Of a stretch of 35,627 nt of DNA, positions 5 through 34,029 are shown in pieces. How positions within the stretch are numbered: the stretch's first letter is position 1; every line of letters starts with the position of its first letter. The DNA is taken from positions 1 through 35,627 of the forward strand of contig NZ_JAUXNA010000070.1 of NCBI RefSeq assembly GCF_030682935.1, in the 5' to 3' direction. The translations under genes and the position numbers were made by a program. The DNA comes from Polaromonas sp. Lineage in GTDB: Bacteria > Pseudomonadota > Gammaproteobacteria > Burkholderiales > Burkholderiaceae_C. Under the pieces are notes generated by a model, which saw only the letters and a list, made by a program, of their open reading frames with translations, was not told the DNA's origin and did no database searches.

Positions 5-1150
5 GTGACCGTCATCACCAACATCGAAGACCTGCGCGTGCTGGCGCAAAAGCGCGTGCCGCGCATGTTCTACGACTACGCCGACTCCGGCTCCTGGACC
101 GAAGGCACCTACCGCGCCAACTCGGACGACTTCCAGACCATCAAGCTGCGCCAGCGGGTCGCGGTCAACATGGAGAACCGCAGCACGGCGGCCACCCTGG
201 TCGGATGCCTGGCAAAGATGCCGGTGGCGATTGCGCCGGTGGGACTGACAGGCATGCAGCATGCCGACGGCGAGATCAAGGCGGCCAGGGCGGCTGAAAA
301 GTTCGGCATTCCCTTCATCCTGTCGACCATGAGCATCTGCTCCATCGAGGACATTGCGGCCAACACGCAGCGCCCTTTCTGGTTCCAGCTCTACATGATG
401 CGCGACCGCGAGGCCATGGCCGCCATGATCGAGCGCACCCGCAAGGCGGGCTGCGACGCGCTGGTGCTGACGCTGGACCTGCAGGTGATCGGCCAGCGCC
501 ACAAGGACCTGAAGAACGGCCTGACGGCGCCGCCCAAGCCGACCCTGGCCAACATCATCAACCTCATGACCAAGCCGCGCTGGTGCATGGGCATGGCCGG
601 CACGCGCCGCCACACCTTCGGCAACCTGGTCGGCCATGTCAAGGGGGTCAGCGACATGAATTCGCTGGCAGCCTGGACCAACGAGCAGTTCGACCCGCGC
701 CTTTCCTGGGCAGACGTGGCCTGGGTCAAGGAAAAATGGGGCGGCAAGCTGATCCTCAAGGGCATCCAGGATGTGGAAGACGCCAAACTTGCTGTGCAAA
801 GCGGCGCCGACGCCATCGTGGTGAGCAACCACGGTGGCCGCCAGCTCGACGGTGCGCAGTCCAGCATCTCGGCCCTGCCCGCCATCGTCGAGGCGGTGGG
901 CCCGGAGATTGAAGTGTGGATGGACGGCGGCATCCGTTCCGGCCAGGACGTGCTCAAGGCCTGGGCGCTGGGCGCACGCGGCACGCTGATTGGCCGCGCC
1001 ATGGTCTACGGCCTGGGCGCCATGGGCGAAGCCGGCGTGACCAAGGCGCTGCAGATCATCCACAAGGAACTCGACATCACCATGGCGTTCTGCGGCCACA
1101 CCGACATCAACACCGTGGACAAAAGCATTTTGCTTCCGGGTACGTATTAA
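5..1150 (+). CDS. FMN-dependent alpha-hydroxy-acid oxidase / L-lactate dehydrogenase family protein (start may lie upstream of window)
   Basis: ORF with FMN alpha-hydroxy acid dehydrogenase motifs (YDYADSGSWTEGTYRAN, SNHGGRQLDGAQSS, DGGIRSGQDVLKAWALGARGTLIGR). Begins at GTG 4 nt from window edge. Confidence 0.9.
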   Translation: MTVITNIEDLRVLAQKRVPRMFYDYADSGSWTEGTYRANSDDFQTIKLRQRVAVNMENRSTAATLVGCLAKMPVAIAPVGLTGMQHADGEIKAARAAEKFGIPFILSTMSICSIEDIAANTQRPFWFQLYMMRDREAMAAMIERTRKAGCDALVLTLDLQVIGQRHKDLKNGLTAPPKPTLANIINLMTKPRWCMGMAGTRRHTFGNLVGHVKGVSDMNSLAAWTNEQFDPRLSWADVAWVKEKWGGKLILKGIQDVEDAKLAVQSGADAIVVSNHGGRQLDGAQSSISALPAIVEAVGPEIEVWMDGGIRSGQDVLKAWALGARGTLIGRAMVYGLGAMGEAGVTKALQIIHKELDITMAFCGHTDINTVDKSILLPGTY

Positions 1151-1282: not shown

Positions 1283-3298
1283 CTAGTCTCGCAAGTTGGG
1301 GGGCACGATGCCGTGCCGCTTCATTCGTCGATACACGGTCGCGCGGCACAAATCCAGATGACGCGCCGTCTGTGCGATGTTCCACTGATGCTGCTTCAGG
1401 GCCAGCCGCAGGGCCTGCGCTTGCGCATTTGGCAACGTCGGCTCTGAAACAACGACCCTGTCCACGGGGGGAGCGCTTTCCGCGGGAACAACGTCTTCAT
1501 TGAAGCCCAGGGTCGCCAGCCGCGGCGGCGGCATCAGATTGCAGACCGTGCACCGCACATCGGCCGGCAGATGCTCGAGTTCCACCAGCCCGTCATCACT
1601 GAGCGCCAGGGCTGAGCGCAACGTGTTCTTGAGCTGGCGGATGTTGCCCGGCCAGTCGTAGTGCAGCAGCACCGCCAGGGCGTTTTCGGCGATCCCATGG
1701 CTGGCACGCTGCTGGGCCGCCGCTTCCTCGCGCAGCAATTGATGAATCAGCGCCACCTTGTCGCTGCGCTCGCGCAGCGCGGGCAGCTTGAGCACCATGC
1801 CATTGAGCCGGTAATACAGGTCCTGGCGGAATTGGCCCGCGCTGACCAGTTCGGTCAGGTCGCGGTGCGTCGCGCAGATCACCTGCAAGTCCACCGGAAC
1901 CGGTTTTTCAGCCCCGAGAGGCAGCACCTCGCGCTCGGCCAGCACGCGCAGCAGGCGCGTTTGCAGGTTCAGCGGCATGTCGCCAATTTCATCGAGAAAC
2001 AGAGTGCCGCCATCGGCTTGGGTAATCTTGCCGCGCACGCCTTTGGCCCGCGCGCCCGTGAAAGCGCCGTCGCGGTAGCCAAACAGCTCGCTTTCAATCA
2101 GTGACTCGGGAATCGCCGCGCAATTGAGCGCCACGAAAGGTGCGGCCGCGCGTCCGCTGGCCTCGTGCATGGCGTGCGCAAAAACTTCCTTGCCGGTGCC
2201 GGTTTCACCATGCAGCATCACGGGAATGCCTTTATCCAGCACGCGCAAGGCCTGGTTGGCGTTGACCACCATTTGTGCGTCGCCGCCGGCCAGCTTCTGC
2301 AGCGGCCCCTGCAGCCCCTGCGCGACCGGCAAGGCATTCTTGCCCGCGTTGGGCATGCTGCGAACCAGCCGGCTCGGCTGGCTCGGCTGGCTCGGCTGGG
2401 CATAGTAGCGCCGCGCCGACTGCAGGGTGCGCAACGCAAACGGCGCACCATTGGCCGCCGCCATGGCCCGGCCCAGGTCTTCCATGCGCAGGCCAAACAG
2501 GTCTTCCAGCCGCAGCCCGGGCAGGGGCCGGGCTGCGCCGCCGAATTCCAGCTGGGCGCGGGCGTTGGCGGCCACGATCACGCCTTCTTCATTGAGCGCC
2601 AGCAGGCCTTCGACATCAACGTCGAGGAACTCGCGCCGCGCGCTCAGGCGCAGCACCAGGCAATGCTCGAACTGGCGCAGGAAGTGCGCGTTCTCGATCA
2701 TGCGCGCCGTGCCGCTGACCATTTGCAGCACCAGGTGCTGGCTGCGCTTGTCGTCCGGCGAGAACAGGGCCGAGGCATCGAGCACGGCCAGCAGCTCGCC
2801 GCCGGGCGCAAAGATCGGCGCCCCACTGCAGGTCAGCGAGGTGTTGGGGGCGCGGAAGTGCTCGCCATGGTGCACCGTGACCGGCAGCCGGTCGATCGTG
2901 CACAGGCCCACGGCGCAGGTGCCTTCCTCGTCTTCCGACCAGCAGGAACCGAGGTAGAGGCCGGCTCGGCGCAGCTCGCGGTCCAGCAGCGGGTTGTTCA
3001 TGAAATCCACCGTGACACCATGCGCGTCGGTCAGCAGCACCACATAGCCGGCATCGCGTATCTGCGCAAACAGCTTTTCCATGCCACTGCGCGCAATGTG
3101 CAGCAAGGGTTCGAGCGGCGCCTGGTAGTCGCGCAGGTGGTGGGCCGGCAGCACGCGCGGCGGGGCCGGACGCCCCGGGTCGAGCCGATGGACTTCGATC
3201 GAGCGACGCCAGGACTGAGCGATCGGCGACCCGGGCTCGGGCGCGCCCGCGAGCGCGAGCCTGCGGTCCACACCGGCGGCAATCTGGGCCTGGTTCAT
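1283..3298 (-). CDS. sigma-54-dependent Fis-family transcriptional activator, AcoR-like (GAF/PAS + AAA+ + HTH)
   Basis: GETGTGKE Walker A, ESELFGYRDGAFTGA (sigma-54 contact loop), LFLDEIGD, C-terminal Fis-type HTH (IAQTARHLDLCRATVYRRMKRHGI). Start taken at MNQAQIAAGVDRR; the ORF track extends to 3472. Confidence 0.92.
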   Translation of the reverse strand: MNQAQIAAGVDRRLALAGAPEPGSPIAQSWRRSIEVHRLDPGRPAPPRVLPAHHLRDYQAPLEPLLHIARSGMEKLFAQIRDAGYVVLLTDAHGVTVDFMNNPLLDRELRRAGLYLGSCWSEDEEGTCAVGLCTIDRLPVTVHHGEHFRAPNTSLTCSGAPIFAPGGELLAVLDASALFSPDDKRSQHLVLQMVSGTARMIENAHFLRQFEHCLVLRLSARREFLDVDVEGLLALNEEGVIVAANARAQLEFGGAARPLPGLRLEDLFGLRMEDLGRAMAAANGAPFALRTLQSARRYYAQPSQPSQPSRLVRSMPNAGKNALPVAQGLQGPLQKLAGGDAQMVVNANQALRVLDKGIPVMLHGETGTGKEVFAHAMHEASGRAAAPFVALNCAAIPESLIESELFGYRDGAFTGARAKGVRGKITQADGGTLFLDEIGDMPLNLQTRLLRVLAEREVLPLGAEKPVPVDLQVICATHRDLTELVSAGQFRQDLYYRLNGMVLKLPALRERSDKVALIHQLLREEAAAQQRASHGIAENALAVLLHYDWPGNIRQLKNTLRSALALSDDGLVELEHLPADVRCTVCNLMPPPRLATLGFNEDVVPAESAPPVDRVVVSEPTLPNAQAQALRLALKQHQWNIAQTARHLDLCRATVYRRMKRHGIVPPNLRD

Positions 3299-3443
3299 GA
3301 ATTTGTCTCCTGCTGCGAACCTGCTTGGGCCTGCCCATGGTACATCGCCAGCAGAAAGCTGGCCATGGTGTTTACAGCCTGGCGCCAAGTTTGCCGGTGC
3401 AAGCCACGCGCCCCGTAACAATGTCGCAGGCAAGACCGGTATG

Positions 3444-3506
3444 GCGACAGCTGTCGCAGGCCTTGCCGCCAAAAGTCAGCCGGTCCTGCGACAGCTGTCG
3501 CAGGAC
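3444..3506. promoter_or_regulatory. putative upstream activator sequences: palindromes GCGACAGCTGTCGC (3444-3457) and GTCCTGCGACAGCTGTCGCAGGAC (3483-3506)
   Basis: Two copies of the same palindrome, centres 44 bp apart, in the intergenic region between the sigma-54 activator and the operon; a third half-site TGTCGCAGG at 3422-3430. Confidence 0.7.
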
Positions 3507-3565: not shown

Positions 3566-3581
3566 TGGCATCAATGTTGCC
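3566..3581 (+). promoter_or_regulatory. putative sigma-54 (-24/-12) promoter
   Basis: TGGCATCAATGTTGCC fits TGGCAYN-N4-TTGC with correct GG/GC spacing, 73 bp upstream of the operon ATG and downstream of the palindromes. Confidence 0.7.
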
Positions 3582-3653: not shown

Positions 3654-4661
3654 ATGGAACCAACGACAAAGCAGTTGCTCTGGATGTACGAAACCATGGT
3701 CGAAATCCGCGAGTACGAAGAGACCATGGCCAAGGTCTACCTGGAGGGCAAGCTGCCTCCCAATATCCAGAAGGGCCTGGCCTTCGACATTGGCGCCGGA
3801 CCGGTGCCCGGTGAAATGCATCTGGCGGCCGGCCAGGAACCTGTGGCGGTAGGCGTTTGCGCCCACCTGCGCAAGGACGACACCGTGGTCGGCGCGCACC
3901 GGCCGCACCATTTCGCCATTGCCAAAGGCGTGCCGCTGAATCCGATGACGGCCGAGATGTTCGGCAAGGTCACAGGTCTGAGCCGCGGCAAGGGCGGCCA
4001 CATGCACCTGTTCGACCCCGAGCACAAGTTCAGTTGCAGCGGCATCATCGGCGCGAGCATGCCGCCGGCCTGCGGCGCGGCGCTCGCGGCCAAGAAGCGT
4101 GGCACCGACGCGGTGGCCGTAGCCTTCTTCGGCGAAGGCGCAACGAATCAGGGCGCGTTCCATGAGTCGCTGAACCTCGCGGCGCTGTGGCGCCTGCCGG
4201 TGATCTTCGTCTGCGAAGACAACAAGTACGCGATCTCGGTCGAAAAGTCCGAGTCGACCTCGATTGCCTGGAATTCCGACCGCGCCTCGGCCTACGGCAT
4301 CCCGGGCGTTCGGGTTAAACACAACGACGCGCTCGAAGTGTTCGAGGCCGCGGGTACTGCCGTGGCGCGCGCCCGCCGTGGCGAAGGTCCCACGCTGATC
4401 GAAGTCAAGACTGACCGCTACCTCGGCCACTTCCAGGGTGACCCCGAAACCTACCGCCCCAAAGGCGAGGTGGAGGCGCTACGCAAGAACGACCCGATCC
4501 CCAAGCTCGGCGACCACCTGCGCAAGTTGGGCGTGCTGAACGACGCGCTCGACCAGAAGCTGCGCGCAGCGGTCACCGAACGCATCACCGAGGCCTATGA
4601 CTTCGGCCGCAACAGCCCCTACCCGAAGCCCGAAGACGCGCTGCTGCACGTCTTTGCCTGA
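3654..4661 (+). CDS. thiamine-pyrophosphate-dependent dehydrogenase E1 alpha subunit (acetoin dehydrogenase AcoA-like)
   Basis: TPP-binding motif FFGEGATNQGAFHESLNLAALWRLPVIFVCEDN; E1-alpha fold; follows the sigma-54 promoter. Confidence 0.9.
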   Translation: MEPTTKQLLWMYETMVEIREYEETMAKVYLEGKLPPNIQKGLAFDIGAGPVPGEMHLAAGQEPVAVGVCAHLRKDDTVVGAHRPHHFAIAKGVPLNPMTAEMFGKVTGLSRGKGGHMHLFDPEHKFSCSGIIGASMPPACGAALAAKKRGTDAVAVAFFGEGATNQGAFHESLNLAALWRLPVIFVCEDNKYAISVEKSESTSIAWNSDRASAYGIPGVRVKHNDALEVFEAAGTAVARARRGEGPTLIEVKTDRYLGHFQGDPETYRPKGEVEALRKNDPIPKLGDHLRKLGVLNDALDQKLRAAVTERITEAYDFGRNSPYPKPEDALLHVFA

Positions 4662-4694
4662 ACGCAAACCCGTACTGACAAGGAGACAACTCTC

Positions 4695-5741
4695 ATGAAC
4701 GCACCCGCCACCCGCAAGCTGACCATGGCCCAGGCCATCTCGGAAGCCATTGCGCAGGAAATGGAACGCGACCCCGAAGTTTTTGTACTTGGTGAAGACG
4801 TGGGCAAGTACGGGGGCATCTTCAGCGCCACCGGCGGCCTGCTCGCCAAGTTCGGCAAGGACCGGATCATGGACACGCCGATTTCGGAAACCGGCTTCAT
4901 TGGCACGGCCATCGGCGCCGCGGCCGCAGGCATGCGCCCCATCGCCGAGTTGATGTTCGTCGACTTCTTCGGCGTCTGCATGGACATGATCTACAACCAC
5001 ATGGCCAAGAACATCTACATGTCCGGCGGCAACATCCAGTTGCCCATGGTTTTGATGAGCGCCATCGGCGGTGGCTACAACGATGCGGCGCAGCATTCGC
5101 AGTGCCTGTACGCGACCTTCGCCCACATGCCGGGCATGAAAGTTGTCGTGCCCTCGAATGCCTATGACGCCAAGGGCCTGATGACCCAGGCCATCCGCGA
5201 CAACAACCCGGTGGTGTTTCTATTCCACAAGGGCATCATGGGCCTGCCCTGGATGTCGTACTTCGAGGGCAGCACCAACGAAGTGCCCGAAGCACCTTAT
5301 GCCATTCCATTCGGCCAGGCCCGGGTGGTGCGCGAAGGCTCGGACCTGACCATCGTGACGCTGAGCCAGATGGTGCAAAAGGCTGTGATCGCCTCCGACG
5401 AGCTGGACCGCGAGGGCATCAGCGCCGAGATCATCGACCTGCGCACTATCGTGCCGCTGGACCGCGCCGCCGTGCTGGCCTCGGTGCGCAAGACCGGCCG
5501 GCTGCTGATTGCCGACGAGGATTACCTGAGCTTTGGACTCTCGGGCGAAATCTCGGCCCTGATTGCCGAAAACCTCGACACCGTACCGCTGAAAGCACCC
5601 GTGCGCCGCCTGGCCGTGCCCGACGTGCCCATTCCCTATAGTCGTCCGCTTGAGCAATTTGTGATTCCACAGACCTCGTCGATTGTCCAGGCCGCGCGTC
5701 AACTGGCCCAGGCCAAAAAACTGGTGGGGACGCTGGCATGA
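4695..5741 (+). CDS. 2-oxoacid/acetoin dehydrogenase E1 beta subunit (transketolase-like, AcoB-like)
   Basis: E1-beta motifs (MDTPISETGFIGTAIGAAAAGMRPIAELMFVDF, EIIDLRTIVPLDRAAVLASVRKTGRLLIADE). Confidence 0.92.
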   Translation: MNAPATRKLTMAQAISEAIAQEMERDPEVFVLGEDVGKYGGIFSATGGLLAKFGKDRIMDTPISETGFIGTAIGAAAAGMRPIAELMFVDFFGVCMDMIYNHMAKNIYMSGGNIQLPMVLMSAIGGGYNDAAQHSQCLYATFAHMPGMKVVVPSNAYDAKGLMTQAIRDNNPVVFLFHKGIMGLPWMSYFEGSTNEVPEAPYAIPFGQARVVREGSDLTIVTLSQMVQKAVIASDELDREGISAEIIDLRTIVPLDRAAVLASVRKTGRLLIADEDYLSFGLSGEISALIAENLDTVPLKAPVRRLAVPDVPIPYSRPLEQFVIPQTSSIVQAARQLAQAKKLVGTLA

Positions 5742-5995
5742 GTCGCATCGAGATTGTCTTGCCCGACGAGGTCTGGCAAGACGTGGAGCCCGGGACCGAA
5801 GCCCTGGTCGAAGACTGGCTGGTCGCCGAGGGCGCCGCGGTAACGGCCGGTCAGGCCATTGCCAGCGTGGTCGTGGTCAAGACCAACCACGAGGTGACAG
5901 CGCCAGCCGACGGCGTGATCGAGAAGATACTGGTCAGGGCCGAAGAGACCTTTGCGCGCGGCGCGCCGCTGGGTGTGCTGCGGGGAGCGTCGTGA
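5738..5995 (+). CDS. stand-alone lipoyl-domain protein (85 aa)
   Basis: MSRIEIVLPDEVWQDVEPGTEALVEDWLVAEGAAVTAGQAIASVVVVKTNHEVTAPADGVIEKI: lipoyl/biotinyl domain with K in the hairpin turn; ATGA overlap with the upstream gene. Confidence 0.85.
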   Translation: MSRIEIVLPDEVWQDVEPGTEALVEDWLVAEGAAVTAGQAIASVVVVKTNHEVTAPADGVIEKILVRAEETFARGAPLGVLRGAS

Positions 5996-6702
5996 CGACC
6001 GAGGTCCCGAGCTCACCGGCGGCCGCGCCGTCCGCGCTGATCCCGCTCAAAGGCCTGCGCGGCAGCATTGCGCGCAACGTGACGGCGGGCTGGCAGGCAC
6101 CGCGCGTGGCCCAGGCGGTCGAGGTCGACATGACGCGCAGCCTGGCCCTGCAAGCCAGATTGCAGGCCAGACTGGGCAGCGCGACCCGCATCACCATCAC
6201 GCACGTCGTGCTGCGGGCCGTGGCGCTGACGCTGCGCGCGCACCCCGCGCTCAACGCCTGCCTGCGCGAAGGCGGCATCGAGCGCATGCCCGGCATCAAC
6301 CTGGGCCTGGCGGTCTCGCTGCCCGATGGGTTAGCGGTGCCGGTGATCCGCGATGCCGACATGAAGTCCATTGAGCAGTTGGCCGACGCCTCGCGTGAAC
6401 TCGCTGCGGGCGCTCGCGCCAGTGCGCTCCCGCCCAAGGCATTTCAGGGTGGAACCTTCACGGTGACCAACCTGGGCATGACCGGCATCGACTGGTTCAC
6501 CCCGATCCTGAACCCACCGCAGGTCGGTATCCTGGGTCTGAGCCGCATTGCCGAGCAGGCCGTGGTGCGCAAAGGCCAGATCGTGGCCGCGCCCATGAGC
6601 ACCTTGACCCTGGTCTTCGATCACCGCGCAGTCGATGGCTACCCGGCCGCGCTGTTCCTGGCCGATATCCGCCGCCGGCTGGAGTCCTGCGAGGGCCTAT
6701 GA
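5992..6702 (+). CDS. 2-oxoacid dehydrogenase E2 acyltransferase catalytic domain only (GTG start)
   Basis: Catalytic DHRAVDG motif near the C-terminus; PPQVGILGLSRI. In-frame GTG at 5992 overlaps the preceding stop (GTGA). No lipoyl domain and only ~35 residues before the catalytic fold. Confidence 0.85.
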   Translation: MTTEVPSSPAAAPSALIPLKGLRGSIARNVTAGWQAPRVAQAVEVDMTRSLALQARLQARLGSATRITITHVVLRAVALTLRAHPALNACLREGGIERMPGINLGLAVSLPDGLAVPVIRDADMKSIEQLADASRELAAGARASALPPKAFQGGTFTVTNLGMTGIDWFTPILNPPQVGILGLSRIAEQAVVRKGQIVAAPMSTLTLVFDHRAVDGYPAALFLADIRRRLESCEGL

Positions 6703-7436
6703 AGCGCGACCTGCCTTATGTGCCGCTGTGCGTGCCAGCCCGCGATGAGCAGGTCTGGAACGAGCGTCAGCTTGCCAGTCCCGTGCTGGAACCGCAGGTG
6801 CGCCTGTGGCGTTACCGCACGCCGGCGGTGGTGCTCGGCTGCGCGCAGCGGTCGGCGCTGGCGGGCCTGGCCGGTACGACGGCCACGGGTGTGGACACGC
6901 TCGTGCGCCAGGCTGGCGGCGGCGCGGTGCTGGTCGGCCCCTGGATGCTCAGCGCTTCCATCGCGCTGCCGAATGGGCATCCGCTGGTGACAGCGAGCCC
7001 CGTTTCGAGCTACCGCTGGCTCGGGGAGCTCTACGCAGGCGTGCTGCAAAACCTCGGGATCGCGGCCCATGCGGTAGCGCCCGACGAAGCACGCGGCTTC
7101 GCGCATGCAAACGACGTCGGCAAAGACCTGGACTGGGCCTGCTATGGCGGCGTCTCGCCCTGGGAAGTGGTGGTGGGCTTGCGCAAGATCGTCGGGCTGG
7201 CGCAAATCAGGCGCCGTACCGGCATCCTGCTGGTGGCGGGCCTGCTGCTGGAGCGGCCGCAATGGCCTGCCTTGTGCCAAGCCCTGAGCCGCCCGGCCAC
7301 CCATGTTGACCACCTGATCCAACGCACCACGTCACTCGCCCAGGAGATCGGCGTTGCGCCTTCCGTTTTCGAGATCGCGCATCCGCTGGCCTGGGCCTTG
7401 CACGACGCACTCCATGGAGCGCCCCTCCATCCCTGA
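6699..7436 (+). CDS. lipoate-protein ligase A-like protein (LplA/BPL-LipB fold)
   Basis: LVRQAGGGAVL (cf. RRxSGGGxV), GLRKIVGLAQIRRRTGILL (cf. GrKIaGsAQ), ATGA overlap with the E2 gene. Confidence 0.8.
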   Translation: MKRDLPYVPLCVPARDEQVWNERQLASPVLEPQVRLWRYRTPAVVLGCAQRSALAGLAGTTATGVDTLVRQAGGGAVLVGPWMLSASIALPNGHPLVTASPVSSYRWLGELYAGVLQNLGIAAHAVAPDEARGFAHANDVGKDLDWACYGGVSPWEVVVGLRKIVGLAQIRRRTGILLVAGLLLERPQWPALCQALSRPATHVDHLIQRTTSLAQEIGVAPSVFEIAHPLAWALHDALHGAPLHP

Positions 7437-7545: not shown

Positions 7546-8052
7546 ATGAAAAAGCAAATTCATTCTCTGGCCATGGTGGCGACCTGCGCCATGACGTTTT
7601 TCGCCAGCCCTGCCAACGCGCTCGAGATGAGTCCGACCTTGTCGCTGAATGTGGCCCGAACGATGGCGACGGCTTGCGAATCGCTTGCCACGCAGAAAGG
7701 GTGGCGCATGAACATCGCGGTGGTCGACGGCGGTGCGCAGCCGATTGTCTTCGTAAGAATGGATCGATCATTTCTTGGCAGTGGCGATATCGCCCTGACG
7801 AAAGCGCAGACCTCCGCCAAGTTCCCATTCAGCACCCGCTTTGTTCAAGAGCTGTCCTACGGCAAAGACGGCAAGCCAGCGCCACTCCCGGGATTCGTCC
7901 ATGTCCGCGGGGTTGTTGCCTTTGCGGGCGGCCTGCCCATACGTGCCGCCGGGATGCACATCGGAGGCATCGGCGTCAGTGGAGGCACAGCCGACGAAGA
8001 CGAAACCTGCGCTCAAGCAGGAATAGACGCGGTCAATCACCTCCTGAAGTAA
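7546..8052 (+). CDS. GlcG/HbpS family heme-binding-like protein with signal peptide
   Basis: MKKQIHSLAMVATCAMTFFASPANALEM signal peptide; MNIAVVDGGAQPIVFVRMD and GGIGVSGGTADEDETCAQAGI typical of GlcG/HbpS. Confidence 0.85.
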   Translation: MKKQIHSLAMVATCAMTFFASPANALEMSPTLSLNVARTMATACESLATQKGWRMNIAVVDGGAQPIVFVRMDRSFLGSGDIALTKAQTSAKFPFSTRFVQELSYGKDGKPAPLPGFVHVRGVVAFAGGLPIRAAGMHIGGIGVSGGTADEDETCAQAGIDAVNHLLK

Positions 8053-31842: not shown

Positions 31843-32808
31843 ATGGCTTCCATACTCCCGCACGCCAAAGGCTGGCGCGTCCAGCTCACGGTAAAAGGCC
31901 AGCGCGACTCCCAAGTGTTCGCATTCAAGCGGGATGCGCAGCAATGGGCGGCCCAGCGGGAGATAGAAATGCGCCGTGGGAGCGCCGTGGGAGGGAAAAC
32001 ATTCTCCCAGGCCGCTGATCGCTACCTGGCCGAAGTGTCCAGCAAGAAGGATGGCGCCAAGTGGGAGGGCTTTCGGCTTGCGGCCATGAAGGTGCATTTT
32101 GGCGACAAGACACTGGCGCAGATCGGGCAACCCGAGATTGCGGCTTGGCGCGACTTTCGGCTGAAGGGCGACAAAGACCACAGGCCGGTGGCCGGCTCGA
32201 CCGTACAGCGCGAGAAAAACCTGCTGCGCAACGTATTCACCGTCGCCCGGGATGAGTGGCACTGGATGGATCACAACCCATTCCAAGGCGTATCCATGCC
32301 CGACGAGAATGACCCGCGAACGGCGCTATGGGATTGGAAGCGCATCAGGCGCGTGCTGCGCTTTCTGGGATATGTGCCAGGGCAGAAGCCGGAAACGGCT
32401 TATCAGCAAGTGGCGCTTGCCTTCCTGATTGGCCTGCACACCAGCTTGCGGGCATCCGAAATCCTGCGCGTCAACGCCAAAACCTTCAACCCGGCCACCC
32501 GGGTGATCACGGTCAAGACCAAAACCATGAAGATTGCCAAGGTACCGATCACGCGCCGGGCGGTCAAGCTCTGCAAGCTGGCCGACTTCACGATTGATGC
32601 CCCCAATCTGGACGCGCTGTTTCGCAAAGCGCGAGACAGCACGCTGGCTGGAGACTTCACGTTCCACGATGGCCGGGCATTTGCACTGACAATGCTGGCG
32701 CGCAAGGTGGACATCCTCACGCTCTCGCGCATCAGTCAGCACAAGGACCTGTCCATGCTCCAGCGCTATTACCGTGAAACGCCGGAACAGGTCGCCGGCC
32801 GACTTTAA
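31843..32808 (+). CDS. tyrosine-recombinase/phage-type integrase
   Basis: Catalytic pattern LRASEIL (R), HDGRAF (HxxR), SQHKDLSMLQRYYRE (H...Y); located directly 3' of tRNA-Leu. Confidence 0.93.
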   Translation: MASILPHAKGWRVQLTVKGQRDSQVFAFKRDAQQWAAQREIEMRRGSAVGGKTFSQAADRYLAEVSSKKDGAKWEGFRLAAMKVHFGDKTLAQIGQPEIAAWRDFRLKGDKDHRPVAGSTVQREKNLLRNVFTVARDEWHWMDHNPFQGVSMPDENDPRTALWDWKRIRRVLRFLGYVPGQKPETAYQQVALAFLIGLHTSLRASEILRVNAKTFNPATRVITVKTKTMKIAKVPITRRAVKLCKLADFTIDAPNLDALFRKARDSTLAGDFTFHDGRAFALTMLARKVDILTLSRISQHKDLSMLQRYYRETPEQVAGRL

Positions 32809-33183: not shown

Positions 33184-34029
33184 ATGACAAGAACTCTCTC
33201 GCGCAAGCCTGCACGCACCAAAACCACTACCGTGCTTGCCCGCCGCCTAGGCCTTGCATTCGTTGCCGCTGTAATTGTCGGGCTCCAAGCCACAAGCTGC
33301 AGCATCCAACCGTTCGAGGCCAGCCCAAGCGCACCTACCCTTCCCACTGGCCAGCAAGCGCAGTCGGAACGATTCAAGGCATGTCCTCAGTTCTTTGCCG
33401 GCAGCATTGCCCCGGCCACACCACCGTCACCCAAGCAGCGTGAACTGTGCTACGAGGCGTTCGCCATCTTGCACAGCGGCGAGACACGCACGCCGGTGTT
33501 TGTTGCCGAAAGGCTCAACCGCCAGGCTGTGCAGGACGCCGATGAAAAGCGTGCAGACAAGTTTTTCGCTGATGCACGCCTGCCCCGTGCCGAGCGCTCA
33601 GAACTGAGCGACTACAAGGGCTCGGGCTACGCACGGGGTCACATGGCGCCAGCAGGCGACATGCCCACGCCGGCGGCCATGGCGCAAAGCTTCAGCTTGG
33701 CCAACATGGTCCCGCAGTCGCAAAAGCAAAACAGCGGCCCGTGGGCCAAGATCGAGAAGGACACCCGGCATTACGCATTGCGGGCCAAGGGCGACGTGTT
33801 TGTCATCACCGGGCCGGTGTTCGACCAGAGCAGTACCACGATTGGCGCAAACAAGGTGCGCGTGCCCAGCCACCTGTTCAAGCTGGTCTATGACGCCAGC
33901 ACAAACAGGGCCTGGGCGCACTGGCAGGCGAATGCGGACGGCACGAAGGCAGGGCCGCCCATCAGCTACCGCGAACTGGTGCAGCGGACCGGTCTAAGCT
34001 TGCTGCCCGGCATTCTCCAAGATGATTAA
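33184..34029 (+). CDS. exported DNA/RNA non-specific endonuclease (NUC1/beta-beta-alpha-metal family)
   Basis: SDYKGSGYARGHMAPAGDM (DRGH-type active site), FSLANMVPQSQKQNSGPWAKIE; N-terminal hydrophobic signal/anchor ending ATSCS. Confidence 0.9.
   Translation: MTRTLSRKPARTKTTTVLARRLGLAFVAAVIVGLQATSCSIQPFEASPSAPTLPTGQQAQSERFKACPQFFAGSIAPATPPSPKQRELCYEAFAILHSGETRTPVFVAERLNRQAVQDADEKRADKFFADARLPRAERSELSDYKGSGYARGHMAPAGDMPTPAAMAQSFSLANMVPQSQKQNSGPWAKIEKDTRHYALRAKGDVFVITGPVFDQSSTTIGANKVRVPSHLFKLVYDASTNRAWAHWQANADGTKAGPPISYRELVQRTGLSLLPGILQDD

Follow-up and report, generated by a model that had tools for sequence, protein, structure and literature searches.

A five-gene operon of Polaromonas sp. 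with an E2 acyltransferase divided between a lipoyl protein and a core-only enzyme, and a predicted lipoylating partner

In textbook 2-oxoacid dehydrogenases the lipoyl arm is carried covalently on the E2 component, and a subunit-binding domain holds E1 and E3. The five-gene operon described here departs from this plan. It lies at positions 3654-7436 of a 35,627-nucleotide (nt) stretch of Polaromonas sp. DNA (RefSeq assembly GCF_030682935.1, contig NZ_JAUXNA010000070.1; hereafter the window, meaning the whole stretch that was analysed) and encodes, in order, E1alpha, E1beta, a free lipoyl-domain protein (LIP), an E2 acyltransferase consisting of the catalytic domain only, and a protein of the lipoate ligase/octanoyltransferase fold (LPL). 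The operon probably specifies an oxidative, thiamine diphosphate (ThDP)-dependent system for C-C cleavage, controlled by sigma54 and of the pyruvate/acetoin dehydrogenase type, with its E2 dissolved into two proteins, a reading to which a probability of about 0.68 is assigned.

All five genes are on the forward strand of a draft genome of 3.59 Mb in 403 contigs that is 89% complete. The E1 alpha subunit (335 aa, 3654..4661) matches PF00676 (E1_dh) at 1.4e-78, and the E1 beta subunit (348 aa, 4695..5741) matches PF02779/PF02780 (Transket_pyr/Transketolase_C) as well as the pyruvate dehydrogenase (PDH) E1 beta profile NF006667 (349.8 bits, cut-off 321); both halves of the ThDP-dependent E1 of a canonical 2-oxoacid or acetoin dehydrogenase complex are present. 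LIP (85 aa, 5738..5995) matches PF00364 (Biotin_lipoyl) at 2.4e-12, with Lys48 as its lipoyl lysine; the E2 (236 aa, 5992..6702), which begins with GTG and carries the active-site motif DHRAVDG, matches PF00198 (2-oxoacid_dh) at 1.1e-67; and LPL (245 aa, 6699..7436) matches PF21948 (LplA-B_cat) at 6.2e-14. The last four genes are joined by 4-nt overlaps (ATGA at 5738-5741, GTGA at 5992-5995 and ATGA at 6699-6702), and Shine-Dalgarno-like sequences stand 5' of E1alpha (AAAGGAG), E1beta (AAGGAG) and the GTG start of E2 (GGGGAG). An earlier reading made from the DNA letters alone (the sequence-only reading) had given the five open reading frames (ORFs), their coordinates and the three overlaps exactly, and had rightly placed an LplA-like gene at the end of the operon.

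An E1alpha alignment was scanned against one genome per species, giving 80 named loci, which were annotated with the window proteins; because this set was drawn by E1alpha similarity, the layout numbers that follow are counts and not frequencies. The window E1alpha is 69-86% identical to those of the 80 related operons. The order E1alpha-E1beta-LIP-E2-LPL (layout A) is encoded by separate ORFs in about 30 genomes, in most cases with 4-nt overlaps like those of the window, and is found in Limnohabitans, Azoarcus, Aromatoleum, Thauera, Ralstonia, Massilia, Denitromonas and other genera, and in the species Comamonas terrae, Hydrogenophaga pseudoflava, Cupriavidus gilardii and Bordetella genomosp. 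2. These genomes, together with domain scans that place the lipoyl and catalytic domains in separate chains (5738-5995 and 5992-6702), uphold the split E2 of the sequence-only reading and show that the five-gene order is conserved. So unusual a layout might be that of a degraded or mis-sequenced canonical operon whose single E2 gene had been broken by a frameshift. This explanation has a vanishingly small probability: the same split, with intact overlapping start and stop codons, recurs in about 30 independent genomes, so that neither chance nor frameshift explains the layout, and the catalytic residues are conserved. An in-frame upstream extension of E2 from a TTG at 5683 was also considered, as a possible seat of a subunit-binding domain, and set aside, its translation being Arg-rich, overlapping LIP and, by eye, non-coding.

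A single relative, a Chloroflexi metagenome-assembled genome (L049), has LIP and E2 fused in one 329-aa chain (L049:8563-9552) through an Ala/Pro-rich linker of about 25 residues; the best indication that LIP and E2 are partners comes from this naturally occurring fusion. The fused chain too is without a subunit-binding domain, which tells further against a frameshift and indicates that the absence of the domain belongs to the family. In the window E2 the PF00198 match spans residues 16-234, and a Pfam scan gave no match to PF02817 (E3_binding) even at E<=1, as the sequence-only reading had anticipated; three canonical E2s scanned in like manner did show PF02817, as did three other proteins in a search of the window genome. 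Among the aligned split E2s PF00198 is present in 32/32 and PF02817 in 0/32. The possibility that a binding domain is hidden in the E2 N-terminus was rejected on the absence of a PF02817 match. Asp210 and His211 are invariant (35/35), and the His/Asp motif DHRxxDG is present. No lpd-like gene, which would encode E3, lies near the window operon, again as had been proposed, and at most two related loci have one nearby; an E3 above the TIGR01350 family cut-off is encoded elsewhere in the window genome, and the LIP system would likely use this shared enzyme of the cell.

The lipoyl protein itself is strongly conserved at its point of attachment, Lys48 being invariant in 86/86 homologs, and its AlphaFold2 (AF2) model is a confident, mostly beta domain (mean predicted local distance difference test score, pLDDT, 91.6). 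The best curated profile for LIP is that of the acetoin dehydrogenase E2 family (1.5e-10), against 0.0031 for gcvH, and LIP scores 40.6 bits with the AcoC-family E2 profile NF011457 (cut-off 307). Homology to GcvH was rejected since the profile scores are too weak (GCV_H 0.051; gcvH 17.6 bits, cut-off 115.85). LIP resembles an E2 lipoyl domain and not GcvH, and is therefore GcvH-like in role only; of the earlier proposal of a free, GcvH-like shuttle, the shuttle is retained as the probable function and the kinship is given up.

In the proposed mechanism, an E1alpha2beta2 enzyme would cleave an alpha-hydroxyketone (acetoin-like, slightly favoured) or decarboxylate a 2-oxoacid, and would reductively acylate the lipoyl group on Lys48 of free LIP. 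Acyl-LIP would then diffuse to the core-only E2, whose catalytic domains presumably form at least a trimer and which would pass the acyl group to coenzyme A, and the resulting dihydrolipoyl-LIP would be re-oxidised by the cell's common dihydrolipoamide dehydrogenase (E3), whose gene lies elsewhere. LPL is envisaged as a dedicated LIP-modifying enzyme, which would probably hold an octanoyl or lipoyl group as a thioester on Cys148 before transferring it to Lys48, while LipA would add sulfur if required. The separate parts could instead form one conventional multienzyme particle, in which non-covalent docking of LIP to E2 or E1 tethers the arm through protein contacts. The fused relative with its linker rich in Ala and Pro is compatible with such docking, and Trp13 and Trp27 of LIP, conserved residues specific to the family, could form a surface for it; neither a docking domain nor an additional extension can be recognised, however, and the N-terminus of the split E2s ahead of the first conserved Arg, and hence of the catalytic core, is variable and comprises 9-38 residues. 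Docking is rated as improbable, at around one chance in five, and LIP diffusing freely is preferred.

Features upstream of the operon bear on its control and its substrate. A divergent gene at 1283..3298 on the reverse strand encodes an AcoR-like sigma54-dependent activator (PF00158 at 3.9e-66, with PF02954), and homologs turned up in 32 related loci among those searched. A predicted sigma54 -24/-12 promoter, TGGCATCAATGTTGCC, lies at 3566..3581 on the forward strand (score 13.0/15.5); taken alone, 2.7% of shuffles score as high as this site, but a sigma54-like site stands upstream of 28/30 E2-bearing operons, 12/34 E2-less operons with LPL and 2/18 LIP-only or incomplete ones, compared with 2.7% of the shuffled sequences. 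A perfect 24-bp palindrome at 3483..3506, GTCCTGCGACAGCTGTCGCAGGAC, is a probable activator site; further palindrome half-sites occur at 3422 and 3452, four of the five TGTCGCA/TGCGACA words of the window fall within 3422-3502, and these words recur upstream of 22/30 E2-bearing operons. The pairing of a sigma54 promoter with an AcoR-type activator that characterises acetoin systems is found here at the level of sequence.

Neighbouring genes in the relatives point the same way. A GMC oxidoreductase gene, with a gene for a small twin-arginine translocation (Tat)-signal protein beside it, occurs in 27/28 annotated loci with separate LIP, E2 and LPL and accompanies no E2-less LPL operon; the nearest solved relatives of the enzyme, which is polyol-dehydrogenase-like, are glucose and fructose dehydrogenases dependent on flavin adenine dinucleotide. 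About 14 loci carry, close to the operon, a gene of the NAD-kinase family, which we take to be AcoX-like. In both L029 and L040 the E2-less operon is adjoined by an acoXABC-type operon, whose AcoC is clear-cut (469-472 bits to NF011457). The promoter, the activator, the GMC and AcoX-like genes and the adjacent aco operons together favour acetoin-type chemistry, and an acetoin-like substrate is somewhat favoured on these grounds. Operons of the acoX-acoA-acoB-acoC type were seen near and opposite the E2-less split operon in L029, L035 and L040, with AcoC checked in L029 and L040; no AcoC-family E2 above the NF011457 cut-off was found in the available window genome. The sequence-only reading had pointed to a route in which the upstream oxidase turns a 2-hydroxyacid into the 2-oxoacid substrate. 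An LldD-like flavin mononucleotide (FMN) dehydrogenase is indeed encoded at 5-1150 (431.9 bits to NF008398), but some 2.5 kb, including the divergent regulator, separates it from the operon, no copy stands directly beside any related operon, and the conserved neighbours are of acetoin type; this route is considered doubtful. The E1alpha tree and pairwise identities were also tried as a test of substrate and were not decisive, there being long branches among the outgroups.

The E2 gene is the variable part of the operon family. In 31 loci having at least 3 kb of downstream sequence the order is E1alpha-E1beta-LIP-LPL without E2 (layout B), and among them are loci of Rubrivivax, Rhodoferax and Curvibacter and of G008 and G004, which belong to the same genus as the window; another genome of that genus (G017) has layout B too, on a short contig. 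L017, L018 and L019 are among the E2-less loci. In layout C, E1alpha-E1beta-LIP stand alone. On the E1alpha tree the window groups with Limnohabitans, Pseudoduganella and Massilia (SH-aLRT 95), all E2-bearing with the GMC gene, and the E2-plus and E2-minus labels require five changes; deep placements among the canonical enzymes are unreliable because of the long outgroup branches. An LPL-family match at E<=1e-10 was obtained in 22/399 genomes drawn evenly from the order. The same split order is present in plasmid records of Gemmobacter, Aminobacter and Phaeobacter; these copies were found by Pfam, and a plasmid search with LPL as query returned no match, which reflects its limited sensitivity. 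Also in plasmid records, the split operon of Rhodococcus opacus has lipA (lipoyl synthase) at the position of LPL (L015:7949-8959), a point in favour of the proposed system, and that of Diaphorobacter, beside an MMPL transporter gene (L118:4983-8699), is a more distant branch in which a 233-aa protein without a Pfam match follows E2. Among haloarchaea, Halobaculum lipolyticum has the split order too, again in a plasmid record, and Haladaptatus has E1-LIP without E2.

Several points weigh against the proposed system. The E2-less operons of related genera are the main fact that the model leaves unexplained: 31 related operons keep E1, LIP and LPL without E2, so that E2 may not be the essential partner of LIP everywhere, and in these cases the acyl group of LIP must go to a different E2 or to some other acceptor. 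The GMC enzyme, so regular a companion of the E2-bearing relatives, was not found in the window's 89%-complete genome. The window E1alpha is 40% identical to an acetoin-operon E1alpha and 39% to a PDH-annotated one, near-equal values that do not separate acetoin from 2-oxoacid enzymes. Finally, no biochemistry of any family member was found in the literature searched. A broader proposal is that LIP is a general diffusing acyl carrier for a ThDP enzyme, with its own Cys-dependent lipoylating enzyme and a dedicated E2 as an optional addition, the E2-less relatives relying on another acceptor or a borrowed E2; this is regarded as speculative, holding perhaps one chance in four.

The nature of LPL calls for separate treatment, for the sequence-only reading had named it a ligase. 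Arg70, Gly73, Cys148, Lys163, Gly166 and Gln169 are invariant (64/64 sequences); Gly73-Gly75 were also noted, and Cys148 lies 15 residues before Lys163. LPL has the LplA/B catalytic fold with the catalytic Lys (AF2 model mean pLDDT 93.1). LipM and LipL use a Cys at the position corresponding to Cys148, and their combination of active-site Cys and catalytic Lys in a single-domain fold is found in LPL. In a profile search of solved sequences the first match was BH3822 (5.8e-10), a LipL-type amidotransferase, which aligned at the Cys and scored better than LplA (9.1e-7); a single-sequence search of the PDB had given no relevant match. Foldseek with the LPL model ranked LplA (2art, 1.1e-12) best, followed by LipB (2qhs, 2.2e-9), and also matched BH3822, and was unable to separate ligase from transferase. 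The LplA motif, defined as RRxTGGGxxxHD (PMC3904984), and the LplA accessory domain are absent, LPL being a single domain with VRQAGGGAVLVGP, in which GP replaces the terminal HD. Octanoyltransferases use an active-site Cys, and sequence alone cannot assign members of this fold (PMC7253636). With Cys148 and Lys163 invariant and BH3822 as the closest solved sequence, the label of ligase is not established, and LPL is, with modest confidence, predicted to be a thioester acyltransferase. An ATP-dependent lipoate-protein ligase, like the single-domain enzymes of sHdr-LbpA sulfur oxidation, is a serious contender at somewhat less than even odds: sulfur oxidisers have proven single-domain ligases that serve a single free lipoyl protein (PMC6067878), RefSeq names the Phaeobacter copy lipoate--protein ligase, and the best fold match is to LplA bound to lipoyl-AMP, while the invariant Cys148, the ranking of BH3822 above LplA and the altered motif end speak against it. 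LipB, and fragments of LipA at contig ends, occur elsewhere in the window genome, which would make LPL a second lipoylating enzyme; besides LipB it is the only LplA/B-fold gene of that genome. A stand-alone LPL homolog, about 42% identical and with no E1 or LIP genes nearby, was observed at L021:9304-10254, some 6.5 kb from an FMN dehydrogenase gene resembling, by eye, that at window 5-1150.

Among known systems, the acetoin system (acoXABC/acoABCL, AcoR-sigma54) shares with the operon the E1alpha/E1beta ThDP enzyme, the AcoR-like activator, the promoter-like site, an AcoX-like neighbour and adjoining canonical aco operons in some relatives, and the E2 family that best matches LIP. The acetoin E2, however, is one chain (lipoyl, subunit-binding and PF00198 domains in the Enterococcus copy; NF011457-family AcoC in L029 and L040), whereas the window encodes its lipoyl and catalytic parts as two proteins and has an LplA-fold gene in addition. 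Pyruvate and branched-chain 2-oxoacid dehydrogenases have homologous E1 and E2 catalytic domains with the DHRxxDG motif, and a shared E3 is likely in the window system; the latter differs in having no covalent lipoyl domain, no E3_binding domain and no local E3. The sHdr-LbpA system with sLpl (PMC6067878, PMC10332631) likewise pairs a lipoyl carrier that is a free single domain with a dedicated LplA-like enzyme, also of one domain and encoded close by, but LbpA is GcvH-like, has two conserved Cys and serves sulfur oxidation, whereas LIP is E2-lipoyl-like, has no Cys at all and accompanies a ThDP E1. The haloarchaeal operons of Halobaculum and Haladaptatus share E1alpha-E1beta-LIP, with or without a core-only E2, and differ in having no annotated LPL gene and an E1alpha about 57% identical. 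In 2007 van Ooyen and Soppa reportedly described a Haloferax operon whose lipoyl domain is free-standing. Single-domain lipoyl proteins in archaea have been noted (PMC3904984), and the substrates of Haloferax 2-oxoacid dehydrogenase enzymes are largely unknown (PMC8305020). With GcvH of the glycine cleavage system the analogy is mechanistic, a free lipoyl protein visiting several enzymes, and does not extend to family membership.

The components belong to known families, and gene-by-gene RefSeq annotations already exist, those for Phaeobacter naming all five genes; a search of mainly open-access literature found no description of a bacterial five-gene split-E2 system. Overall, the earlier interpretation of the operon is partly supported. 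A widespread family without a tethered arm or binding domain constitutes a natural experiment on the need for tethering and channelling, and the system also provides an acyl-carrier module that is small and separable and comes with an enzyme for its lipoylation.

Directly downstream of LPL, at 7546-8052, is a gene for an HbpS-like protein (PF03928) with an apparent signal sequence. No such gene lies directly beside the related operons, the sole match being weak (36 bits) and several kb off in L079, and both this gene and that of the FMN dehydrogenase were rejected as conserved partners. Further along the window, an integrase-like ORF (31843-32808) and a DNA/RNA endonuclease-G-like ORF (33184-34029), both recognised by eye, possibly mark the edge of a mobile element.

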